From a bacterium (GTDB lineage: Bacteria > Armatimonadota > Zipacnadia > Zipacnadales > UBA11051): a DNA stretch of 53,012 nt. How positions within the stretch are numbered: the stretch's first letter is position 1; each line of letters starts with the position of its first letter. The translations under genes and the position numbers were made by a program. The stretch covers positions 1 to 53,012 of the forward strand of contig JAJFUB010000028.1 of NCBI GenBank assembly GCA_021372615.1, given 5' to 3'. The notes beneath the pieces are model-generated. The model worked only from the letters and a program-made list of their open reading frames with translations. It did not search any database and was not told the origin of the DNA. Shown here piece after piece: positions 14,964 through 20,188 of this stretch.

Positions 14964-15161
14964 GGCTCGGTTCCCTCTCTCGTCACCAAGTATCTCCAGG
15001 TGACTGAGGCTATTCGCCGGGGCGGGGCGGCTACCTGCCCAGAGCCATGGCTGTGATCTCGCGCGCGGCGCTGGCATTACATGGGGGCCGCAGTTACAAC
15101 ATGGTAGAAAATGGGTAAACTCAACGGTAAGTCTGTGCGACATCCTCACAGGAGGTACGCT

Positions 15162-15797
15162 ATGAGAACCCGCGGCTTCACACTCATCGAGCTTCTCGTC
15201 GTGATTGCCATCATCGCCATTCTCGCGGCGATCCTGTTCCCTGTCTTCGCCAAAGCCCGCGAGAAGGCCCGCCAGTCAAGCTGCCAAAGCAACTGCAAGC
15301 AGATCGGTCTGGCTGTCATGCAGTACGCCCAGGACTACGACGAGCGCACGCCCAGGCACTGCGACAACGCGGGGGCGTCCGCGAGCGATGACTGCTGGGG
15401 CAAGGTGGTCCAGCCTTACATCAAGAACACGCAGGTGTTCATCTGCCCCTCGGCGTCGGCCAACACGGCGACCGCCGGCAACTACGGCTGGAACATCCGG
15501 GGCTGCGACCAGCGCTCCCTGGGGCAGTTCGCCCATCCGGCCGAGACGATCATGGTCGCCGACCACATCGCTCCGGGTGAGTCGCCGTCGTACAGCGGCG
15601 GCTACATCCGAGCGCCCAACTGCTGCGGCTCGGGCAATCCCCTGACCGGCCAGCAATTCTCCCTGATCTCCTCGCGCCACAATGATGGGGCCAACGTGGC
15701 CTTCACGGACGGCCACGTGAAGTGGTACCACGGCAGCGCGAACAACCAGAACTACGGGGGGCTGCTGGGGACCCAGTACAACTGGAACGACCAGTGA
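15162..15797 (+). CDS. Prepilin-like protein (DUF1559 type)
   Basis: A 211-residue pseudopilin-like exported protein. The first residues MRTRG are the leader; cleavage would occur after the glycine and before [19 protein letters not shown], the N-methylated helix. [13 protein letters not shown] and a pilin-like globular part follow. The C-terminal block [17 protein letters not shown] is the H-x-DG type common in these families. AGGAGGT lies 5-6 bases before the ATG at 15162. No pilus assembly or type II secretion genes adjoin it, so a prepilin peptidase and machinery must be elsewhere. Very similar in plan to 19583-20188. Its role could be a minor pilin or a secreted surface protein. Confidence 0.9.
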
Positions 15798-15878: not shown

Positions 15879-17666
15879 CTACTTCGTCGCCGCGTCCCCA
15901 TCCCCCGCCGCCGCAGGGAAGAATACGCTGAAGGTCGAGCCCTCCCCCGGCACGCTGTGCACCGTCACCCGCCCGCCGTGCGACTCCATGATGTGCCTGA
16001 CAATGGACAGGCCCAGGCCGGTGCCGCCGGTGGCGCGGTCGCGGGCCTTGTCCACGCGGTAGAAGCGCTCGAAGATGCGCCCCTGGTGCTCGGGGGGGAT
16101 GCCGACGCCCGTGTCGCTGACGGCCAGTTCGTACCCTTCGGGCGCCGCGCGCCCGGTGATCGTGACCAGGCCGCCCCGGGGCGTGTACTTGAGGGCGTTG
16201 TCGGCCAGGTTGAGCAGTACCGTGTGCAGGCCATGGGGGTCGGCCCGCACGATGTCCTCGGCGCCAACGCGCGTCTCCAACGCCAGCCCCTTCTCTTCGG
16301 CCCTCAGACGGAGTTCCTCGACCACCTCGGCCACGGCGGGGGCCACCGCCACCGGCTCAGGCTTCAGCAGTTGCTGGCCGCGCTCCACGCGCGTAAGCAC
16401 CAGCATGTCATCCAGGATGCTGGTCAGTCGGTCCGCCGCCTCGACGATCTGCCCGACGAAGCGCGGGCCGCGCTCCGGGTCGCGCAGCGCCCCCATCTGC
16501 AGGGCCTCGGCCAGCGCCTTGACCCCGGCGGCCGGGGTTCGCAGTTCGTGGCTGGCGTTGGCGACGAACTCCCGCCGCACCTCATCCAGCCGCCGCAGGT
16601 CTGTCACGTCGTGCAGCAGTCCGACGGCCCCCAGCGTCTGGCCCTGGTCATCGTGCAACGGGGTGACGACGGCGGCGAGGCTACGGGGTTCGGGGTAGAG
16701 CACGCGCACCTCGTCATGCAGCACGGCCCCCTGCTCGACGGCCCGCTTGAGCAGGGCGCTCAGGTCGTAGTTGAGGGCGAGTTGCTCGGATGAGCGGCCT
16801 TCGGCCGCCGCCTCATCGGTGCGGAACAGGCGGGCGAACGCCGCATTGACGAACTGGGCGCGTCCGGTGCGGTCCACGATCACCACGGCATCGCTCATCT
16901 GCTGGAGTATGGCCGCATAGTACCGGGATTCGCGCTGCGACGACTGGAGCAGCCGCGCCAGCTCATCCAGGGCCGAGTTGAGCACCGTGCCCAGCTCCGC
17001 CAGCTCCGGCTCGGCCAGTCTCTCCGCGCGCGCGGTCAGGTCGCCCTTGCTCACCCGCCGGGCCACGCGCACCAGGTGCTCCACCGGTGCGGTCAGGTGG
17101 CGCGCCAGCAGCAGCCCCAGCAGCCAGATGGCCGCCAGCGCCGCCGCGAGGGTCGCCAGCAGCGCTCGCTGCAAGCCGGCCTGGGCCGCGTAGACCTCCA
17201 CCAGCGGCCGGGCCAGCCGCAGCACCGGCCCTGCCGCAGCCTCCGGGGTCCCCACGGGGATTGCCACATAGAGCATGTCCATGCGCAGGGTGTGGCTGAA
17301 GCGGATGCTGCTGCCGTGGCCGTAGGCCAGGGCTTGCAGGCGCTCGGGCCGGTCCGCGTGGTTCTCCATGGCACCGGGCTCCTCGCGGCTGTCGGCGAGC
17401 ACGACGCCGTCCGCGGCGATGATTGTCACGCGCGCGCCAATCCGCGCATCGAGGGCTTGCGACCAGGCCTGCAACCCGGTGGCATGTGGCGTGAGGGGCG
17501 GGAGTTGGTCGGCGGCCAGGTGGGCCTGGGTCAGCAGGCTCTCGGTAAGCTGCCGGGTCTCGACCACACGCACCGCCGCATGCAGGTACGCGTATAGCAC
17601 CGCGAGGATGGCCGCCGACCCGAGCGTGACGGCGATGGTGATCTTCCAGCGCAGAGCCAGCTTCAT
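15879..17666 (-). CDS. Membrane sensor histidine kinase (PhoR-like)
   Basis: A 595-residue inner-membrane sensor kinase. Order: first membrane helix (~8-30, ITIAVTLGSAAILAVLYAYL), periplasmic sensor domain (~31-160), second helix (~165-190), HAMP, PAS domain (~250-350), HisKA with phospho-acceptor His373 in NASHELRTP, and HATPase (NLADNALKYTP, DTGVGIP, GTGLGLSIV). The order matches PhoR/WalK-type kinases. Its ATG overlaps the stop of the response regulator gene (17663-17665), so the pair is translationally coupled. Phosphate sensing is suggested by the promoter repeats of the operon but is not proven. Confidence 0.94.
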   Translation of the reverse strand: MKLALRWKITIAVTLGSAAILAVLYAYLHAAVRVVETRQLTESLLTQAHLAADQLPPLTPHATGLQAWSQALDARIGARVTIIAADGVVLADSREEPGAMENHADRPERLQALAYGHGSSIRFSHTLRMDMLYVAIPVGTPEAAAGPVLRLARPLVEVYAAQAGLQRALLATLAAALAAIWLLGLLLARHLTAPVEHLVRVARRVSKGDLTARAERLAEPELAELGTVLNSALDELARLLQSSQRESRYYAAILQQMSDAVVIVDRTGRAQFVNAAFARLFRTDEAAAEGRSSEQLALNYDLSALLKRAVEQGAVLHDEVRVLYPEPRSLAAVVTPLHDDQGQTLGAVGLLHDVTDLRRLDEVRREFVANASHELRTPAAGVKALAEALQMGALRDPERGPRFVGQIVEAADRLTSILDDMLVLTRVERGQQLLKPEPVAVAPAVAEVVEELRLRAEEKGLALETRVGAEDIVRADPHGLHTVLLNLADNALKYTPRGGLVTITGRAAPEGYELAVSDTGVGIPPEHQGRIFERFYRVDKARDRATGGTGLGLSIVRHIMESHGGRVTVHSVPGEGSTFSVFFPAAAGDGDAATK

Positions 17667-18355
17667 GCGCCCTCCGCGAACTTGTAGCCCACGCCGCGCA
17701 CGGTGAGGAGATGCCGGGGATGGGAGGGGTCCGTCTCGATCTTGGTGCGCAGCCAGCGGATGTGCACGTCCACGGTGCGCTCGTCGAGGTACTCCTCCTG
17801 CGCCCAGACGGCGGCCAGTATCTGCTCGCGGGTGCGGACGCGGCCGGCGTGCTCCATCAGGTAGGCGAGCAGGTCGAACTCGCGGGGGGTGAGTCGCACC
17901 GGCGCTCCGTCCGCGGTCACCTCATGGCGCGCGCGATCCACCACGATGCCGCCCCGGCTGAGCGTCAGAGGCGCGGCCTCGGCGCCACTGCCCGCCCGCC
18001 GCAGCACGGTGCGCACCCGGGCCACCAACTCGCGCATGCTGAAGGGCTTGGTGACGTAGTCATCCGCGCCCATCTCCAGGCCGGCCACGCGGTCGGCCTC
18101 GTCGGCGCGGGCAGTGAGCATGATGACGGGCACGCCGGGCCGCTGCTTGCGGAAGGCGCGGAACAGGTCCCAGCCGTTGATGCCCGGCAGCATCAGGTCC
18201 AGCACGACCAGGTCGGGGCGGCCCTGCTCGAACTGGTCCAGCGCCTGGTGGCCGTCGCCCGCCACAGTCACGGCCAGGCCCTCCTGCCCCAGCGCATAGG
18301 CCACCGCCTCGGCCAGACTCGCCTCGTCCTCAACGATCAGAATGTGTTCCGCCAT
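17663..18355 (-). CDS. OmpR/PhoB-family response regulator
   Basis: A 230-residue DNA-binding regulator. The receiver has the acidic pair E9/D10, phospho-acceptor Asp53 in LVVLDLMLPG and the KPF lysine near 105. A winged-helix trans_reg_C domain follows (LTPREFDLLAYLMEHAG, RTVDVHIRWLRTKIE, VRGVGYKF). Family length is normal. Start ATG at 18353-18355; the ribosome-binding site is weak (GGAG about 14 bases upstream). It is the first gene of the two-component operon and lies behind a perfect TATAAT with TTAACA-type direct repeats, suggesting autoregulation. Confidence 0.95.
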   Translation of the reverse strand: MAEHILIVEDEASLAEAVAYALGQEGLAVTVAGDGHQALDQFEQGRPDLVVLDLMLPGINGWDLFRAFRKQRPGVPVIMLTARADEADRVAGLEMGADDYVTKPFSMRELVARVRTVLRRAGSGAEAAPLTLSRGGIVVDRARHEVTADGAPVRLTPREFDLLAYLMEHAGRVRTREQILAAVWAQEEYLDERTVDVHIRWLRTKIETDPSHPRHLLTVRGVGYKFAEGA

Positions 18356-18395: not shown

Positions 18396-18440
18396 ATTAT
18401 AGCCGAGGCCCGTTAATGCCCTGTTAAGCCACATTATGTC
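18396..18440 (-). promoter_or_regulatory. Promoter with PhoP/PhoB-box-like direct repeats
   Basis: Reading the minus strand, TTAACA (18422-18427) is followed 5 bases later by TTAACG (18411-18416), then 9 bases, then a perfect -10 TATAAT (18396-18401). Weaker A/T-rich half-sites (GTTAT, ATAAT) continue upstream at about 10-11-base steps. TTAACA-N5-TTAACA is the known arrangement of PhoP boxes in Bacillus-type phosphate systems. Transcription would start near 18389. Autoregulation by the encoded regulator is inference. Confidence 0.6.
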
Positions 18441-19448: not shown

Positions 19449-19527
19449 GAGTCGCCTCCTTCAGAGCGCCCGAACTGATCCGGTCGCATTTCGTGCTCAT
19501 GTTGACTGCCCGGAACCGGCCCGTCTG

Positions 19528-19536
19528 TGGTATGAT
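19528..19536 (+). promoter_or_regulatory. Extended -10 promoter for prepilin-like gene
   Basis: TGG directly before TATGAT (19531-19536) gives an extended -10 (TGn-TATGAT). A TTGACT 23 bases upstream is too far for a classical -35. A start near 19543 leaves a leader of about 40 bases before the ATG at 19583. Confidence 0.5.
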
Positions 19537-19582
19537 GCGCCGCGCGGCCTGGGGCCGCACATCCTGTCACGAGGAGTTGTCT

Positions 19583-20188
19583 ATGCGGCGCGGTTTCACA
19601 CTGATAGAACTGTTGGTCGTGATCGCCATCATCGCCATCCTGGCGGCCATCCTCTTCCCGGTCTTCGCCAAGGCCCGAGAGAAGGCCCGCCAGACGAGCT
19701 GCCTGAGCAACCTCAAGCAGATGGGCCTGGCCTGGCTGCAGTACGCGCAGGACTACGATGAGAAGGTTGCCGTGTGTCGTGTCTCGTCCACGTGCTCCGG
19801 CTCGGTCTCGAGCTTTTTCCAGGACTTCCCGTATCTCCTCATGCCGTATGTCAAGAACAACCAGGTCTTCGACTGCCCCTCCAGCGGGTACGCGAAGTAC
19901 GCCGGCACCACCTCGTACAACCCGGCCAGCTACCAGCAGAATGTCTATCTGGGCAATGAGCCCCTCGGCACGCCCAACAACTATCGGCCAGCCTCACTGG
20001 GAACGATCACCTCGCCGGCCACCTGTCCGCTGCAGTGGGACAGCGCCAACACCAACTGCGAGGGCTGGTGGGTAGCCAACTACCTGGGCATCCGCCACAA
20101 CGACGGGTTCAACTGCAGTTTCTGCGACGGCCACTCCAAGTGGCTGAGCAAGCAGACCGCCCTCGGCACGATCAGCGCCTCGCCCTAG
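19583..20188 (+). CDS. Prepilin-like protein (DUF1559 type), second copy
   Basis: A 201-residue exported pseudopilin-like protein. Leader MRRG, then the same N-terminal helix as the gene at 15162-15797 and the same [13 protein letters not shown] segment. The globular domains diverge strongly. The C-terminal [18 protein letters not shown] block is shared, with four cysteines in the C-terminal half that could form disulfides. ACGAGGAG lies about 6 bases before the ATG. In-frame codons extend upstream to 19493 but overlap the promoter. Like its paralogue, it is a single gene without secretion machinery nearby. Confidence 0.9.

Follow-up and report, generated by a model that had tools for sequence, protein, structure and literature searches.

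The window analyzed here is a stretch of DNA of 53,012 nucleotides (contig JAJFUB010000028.1, assembly GCA_021372615.1) from a bacterium of the Armatimonadota. It carries a two-component operon on the minus strand, in which the kinase gene and the regulator gene overlap by 4 bp (Table 1). Two DUF1559 prepilin-like genes (15111-15797 and 19493-20188) flank the operon, with no recognizable box at either, and one of the two is separated from the operon by an aldo-keto reductase gene. Upstream of the regulator gene, on the minus strand from 18427 to 18396, direct reading of the sequence gives TTAACA-GGGCA-TTAACG-GGCCTCGGC-TATAAT, i.e., five bases between TTAACA and TTAACG and nine between TTAACG and TATAAT; this confirms the arrangement that an earlier note on this DNA had reported ahead of the operon. 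The regulator ATG is at 18355, 46 bp away when counted from the start of TATAAT. The repeats are direct and in tandem with an 11-bp period. They are two units only, the positions 11 and 22 bp farther upstream giving no match, and about 10 bp separate them from a downstream TANNNT -10 hexamer that has no good -35. At spacers of 16-18 nt from TATAAT, the best match to TTGACA is 1/6; the TTAACA unit matches TTGACA at 5/6 positions but sits 20 nt from TATAAT. An ordinary sigma-70 promoter, complete with its -35, is ruled out by this -35 result and by a sigma-70 promoter scan, which found 0 promoters.

Table 1. Coordinates of the operon, the repeats and the multi-unit boxes (positions of the window, or of the named contig of the same genome).
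Feature	Position	Strand	Remarks
DUF1559 prepilin-like gene	15111..15797	+	Occupies the place of the pst genes in relatives; no box found upstream
phoR/pnpS-like sensor kinase gene, 595 aa	15879..17666	-	Weak sCache_like, HAMP, PAS, HisKA, HATPase
phoB/phoP/regX3-like response regulator gene, 230 aa, OmpR family	17663..18355	-	Response_reg and Trans_reg_C; orthologues precede kinase and pstSCAB-phoU
-10 hexamer TATAAT	18396..18401	-	Without matching -35 at 16-18 nt
Promoter-proximal box unit TTAACG	18411..18416	-	First base 15 bp from the -10 hexamer; offset recurs in relatives
Distal (upstream) box unit TTAACA	18422..18427	-	11 bp from the next unit; unit and period recur upstream of orthologues
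Five in-phase units TTAAC, TTAGC, ATAAC, CCAAC, TTAAC	C67:26291-26339		Before a DUF1559 prepilin-like gene
Four units	C135:6727-6775	Opposite to the DUF47-pit operon	Match to the four-unit pattern

The first NCBIfam model for the regulator is PhoB, followed by MtrA and YycF; for the kinase it is PnpS, followed by WalK and PhoR. The regulator scores 248.4 bits with the PhoB model TIGR02154 (cut-off 296.2), and the kinase 277.6 bits with the PhoR model TIGR02966 (cut-off 334.2) and 355.8 bits with the PnpS model NF046044 (cut-off 400). All three scores are under the equivalog cut-offs; the protein sequences are therefore not sufficient to name the pair PhoB/PhoR, and the proteins are not filed as members of these families. 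The sCache_like domain of the kinase has a sub-threshold score in the domain search. RegX3 is the closest regulator with a solved structure. At E 1e-80 the kinase query has a match in 39 of 121 genomes (the own genome and 120 relatives), and this match is single in the own genome, no further kinase being found at that threshold.

The gene neighborhood of the pair differs between the window and many of the relatives. In the latter, the regulator and kinase genes are followed on the same strand by those for PstS, PstC, PstA, PstB and/or PhoU (e.g., G001, G006, G024, G029, G004, G015, G022, G011, G019, G016 and G020); G064, G077 and G113 also have a pst-linked pair, the PstS there being missed by the query. 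Near the pair of L088, L092, L101, L105 and L107-L110, among others, no pst genes were found. The pair is thus found beside pst-phoU in relatives, while that of the window is unlinked and the pst genes are absent. This linkage says more on the phosphate role of the pair than the protein scores do. In relatives of family f5 (L080, L083, L084 and L086) the kinase and pst genes come after a tandem of two regulator genes, the second of which shares about 50% identity with the query.

When up to 2 mismatches are allowed, TTAACAN5TTAACR has a single match in the window, i.e., the site itself (mean of the shuffles, 0.17). At least one match is found in 15 of 100 window shuffles, so that the window statistics by themselves are not strong. 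In the whole genome (6,412,752 bases), TTAACN6TTAAC is found once and YTAAYN6YTAAY twice (5 times in the reversed control). The composite YTAAYN6YTAAYN10TANNNT has one exact match in these 6.41 Mb, that of the window; with up to 2 mismatches it has 15 (control, 32), most of which were discarded as sites, many lying within ORFs. The second exact YTAAYN6YTAAY, at C70:175-190, was not retained as a regulon member: it faces the contig end, away from a coding sequence that reads as cinA-like.

The distances between YTAAY pairs were counted in 41 regions that precede regulator genes. The distance of 11 bp is found nine times, those of 22 and 33 bp three times each, and all others at most 2 times. 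Removal of five second-in-tandem or second-copy regulator genes leaves 36 orthologous regulator promoters. The exact tandem pair (T/C)TAA(C/T) at 11 bp is present in 9 of them (own, G001, G043, G011, G020, G059, G085, G064 and G077), spanning 7 genera and 5 families, and absent from the other 27, including the three that belong to g3 in the own family. Any other spacing from 5 to 24 is found in no more than 2 of the 36; the reversed control gives 0/36 and 1000 dinucleotide shuffles a mean of 0.039 (maximum 1). The exact box is also present upstream of 9 of 20 PstS genes (control, 2) and of 4 of 8 porin genes (control, 1), the boxed porin belonging to Porin_O_P, i.e., the phosphate-selective porins. 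Four in-phase units are frequent at these pst and porin promoters.

The position of the -10 was analyzed on 26 sites of relatives, hand-picked upstream of genes for the regulator, PstS or the porin; the window was excluded and a near match was allowed for the last unit. At a distance of 15 bp, counted from where the last unit begins, the hexamer agrees with TATAAT in at least 4 positions at 15 of the 26 sites and has A2/T6 at 21; the other offsets from 5 to 26 give at most 3 and 4, respectively. The site of the window has the same 15-bp offset.

The total number of sites in 11 relatives is not above the control (105 vs. 128 in the reversed control), and the informative part is thus their placement, not their number. 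The 6.5 Mb of G059 contain only two sites, one ahead of the regulator gene and the other ahead of that for PstS. The four matches in G011 make up the sites of pst, of the regulator and of the adjacent pilin, and the five in G001 are those of the regulator, PstS, DUF47-pit, a CHAD-domain protein and one unassigned place. The gene for this CHAD-domain protein (L317:4822-5799), a domain known for polyphosphate binding, is directly behind an exact TTAAC pair. The genes behind the single sites in G085 and G046 possibly encode a metallophosphoesterase and an aquaporin. Among those of 60 named loci (mostly distant kinases) that have a regulator match, only L254 (Eisenbacteria) and L282 (a planctomycete) have the exact pair upstream.

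PstB is present at E 1e-70 in 102 of the 121 genomes. In the own genome (assembly 96.7% complete) no PstB is found over the cut-off or at E 1e-70, and PstS has 0 matches at E 0.001; a Pho regulon with Pst as its core is thus not found there, and the usual high-affinity phosphate pump seems to have been lost. One PhoU, apart from any pst gene, and one Pit are present. The four-unit pattern with up to 3 mismatches is found at two places only in this genome, upstream of a pilin gene and of pit (control, 0). At the latter, the units overlap a TAGAAT -10-like hexamer of the DUF47-pit operon and extend between this hexamer and the ATG. Since the box covers the -10 and the leader, repression is predicted there. 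G001 has an exact pair at the corresponding place, likewise on the opposite strand. Six of 31 DUF47 loci score at least 16 of 20 for four in-phase units (G000, i.e., the own genome, G001, G059, G072, G085 and G108), this being a raw count without shuffled control. In G059, G072 and G085 the units come after a TACAAT hexamer and ahead of the start. Divergently from DUF47-pit, G000 and G001 have a gene for a DNA methylase, and this gene could be the target of the box rather than DUF47-pit.

The sites that the earlier note had proposed to look for near phosphate genes are therefore found, at pstS and porin genes of relatives and at DUF47-pit in the own genome. The three proposals of that note, i.e., a PhoP-box-like activator site, positive autoregulation of a PhoB/PhoR-like pair and a link with phosphate, all gain independent support: the orthologues of the pair are linked to pstSCAB-phoU, the 11-bp units recur with their -10 offset before the genes for the regulator, PstS and the porin in relatives, and a box covers the DUF47-pit promoter of the own genome.

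The second four-unit place of the genome is upstream of a DUF1559 gene on C67 (Table 1), where the last unit is followed by ten bases and then TATGCT. This pseudopilin gene (L313, C67:21000-33000) has an IS110-type transposase and a tyrosine integrase immediately upstream. In G001, G007, G011 and G043 a DUF1559 gene is found near the pho genes; its upstream region carries three or four units or near-units in phase, together with a hexamer that keeps the 15-bp offset. The site of G007 precedes the predicted start by nearly 400 bp. These four proteins are about 60-68% identical to each other and 43-50% identical to that of C67. Among the nine genes with this DUF1559 N-terminus (40 wide loci and L206), five have the box and four, including both pilins of the window, have none.

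The box may be genuine and the pair of this genome may have ceased to read phosphate, being redeployed after the loss of Pst, e.g., for envelope or pilus control as in its WalRK- and MtrAB-type relatives. The missing PstB and PstS, the scores of the regulator with the MtrA and YycF models and of the kinase with WalK, and the presence of a pseudopilin among the remaining targets are in favor of this explanation. It is nevertheless judged unlikely, since one of the two four-unit boxes of the genome is at DUF47-pit, a phosphate transporter operon, and PhoU has been kept.

In G046 (L165-L185, e.g., L171:544) about twenty DUF1559 genes lie behind an ATTAG-CTAAT-CTAAT-YTAAT array of 11-bp period, followed by ten bases and a TATAAT-like hexamer, i.e., the same -10 offset. 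This genome thus has two flavors of tandem site, TTAAC and ATTAG/CTAAT, which suggests paralogous regulators with related sites. Another OmpR-family regulator might in the same manner bind the box of the window, the operon being then cross-regulated and not autoregulated; as the box goes with the pair and the linked pst operon across relatives, and the kinase is single at E 1e-80 in the own genome, we regard this as improbable. That an AT-rich repeat stands near the promoter by chance is hardly credible: the shuffled windows do contain matches, but the composite is unique in the genome, its period and -10 offset are conserved in several families, and this conservation in relatives is the strongest evidence against chance.

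Very probably, the repeat is a genuine binding site by which a phosphate-sensing switch turns on its own expression. On the comparative evidence, it is classed as a Pho box in the style of E. coli PhoB and cyanobacterial SphR. We are fairly confident that it acts as a two-unit Pho box for self-activation of the phoB-phoR-like operon, most likely when phosphate is scarce. The phosphorylated regulator would bind the two units, which are arranged head to tail at a distance of one helical turn, replace the missing -35 and recruit a sigma-70-type polymerase to TATAAT, so that the operon would activate itself. Multi-unit boxes would drive pst, porin and a pseudopilin gene, and the box over the -10 and leader would repress pit. 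The remaining targets predicted in the own genome are (i) the operon itself; (ii) the DUF1559 pseudopilin gene; (iii) DUF47-pit. More tentatively, this set may constitute a Pho regulon devoid of Pst, in which the pair would sense phosphate independently of Pst, activate itself and the DUF1559 pseudopilin and repress pit through the box, and a DUF1559 pseudopilin of a single orthologous group would be a constant regulon member throughout the lineage.

The analysis provides a defined Pho box (unit, period and -10 offset) with a predicted regulon for the lineage. Two predicted features are unusual: a control by phosphate in a genome where Pst is not detected, and a control by phosphate of the DUF1559 pseudopilins. 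The latter, if true, would be the first regulatory clue to DUF1559, a very large family of unknown function. In the portions available of the armatimonad literature on PhoB or the Pho regulon, no such site or Pho regulon is described; the available text of PMC4072686 mentions PhoB-PhoR once, in the context of exopolysaccharide. Likewise, no phosphate control of DUF1559 was found in the accessible parts of the literature on DUF1559 and phosphate.

The comparison with known systems is as follows. The PhoP box of Bacillus subtilis consists of TT(A/C/T)ACA-type repeats with 5-bp gaps, usually four in number; the site of the window shares the TTAACA unit and the N5 gap and differs in having two repeats. 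The domain order of the window kinase is that of PnpS/PhoR, and B. subtilis PhoR has the same order. RegX3, the closest regulator of solved structure, belongs to SenX3-RegX3, whose binding unit differs from that of the window. The E. coli Pho box unit is of the CTGTCA type. The E. coli PhoB system differs from the present one by this unit, here (T/C)TAA(C/T), by the score of the protein, here under the PhoB equivalog cut-off, and by the own genome, in which PstB and PstS are not detected. The orfA gene of Sinorhizobium meliloti presumably encodes a DUF47 protein; the own-genome box differs from that of orfA-pit in being on the opposite strand and overlapping the -10.

SenX3-RegX3 is described as a phosphate two-component system of mycobacteria in the available part of PMC4415409. 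In S. meliloti, orfA-pit is repressed upon phosphate starvation, with a box just upstream of the start (PMC3131613, in part); the likeness consists in a small gene ahead of pit and a Pho box that closely precedes the translation start, repression being predicted in the present case. According to the part of PMC1906773 available, E. coli Pho boxes consist of repeats of 8 bp separated by a 3-bp linker and are located 10 bp ahead of a -10 TAN3T/A. The site is alike in its head-to-tail 11-bp period and its position about 10 bp before a TANNNT -10, replacing the -35, and in both cases the regulator and pst genes are among the targets (PMC1906773). In the same source, the SphR Pho box is made of at least three CTTAACCT repeats; it shares with the present site a near-identical unit, (C)TTAAC, the 11-bp period and the location before pst genes, whereas the site of the window has two repeats. 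As far as these sources go, the site joins the known kind of Pho box, near the SphR unit CTTAACCT and the E. coli geometry.
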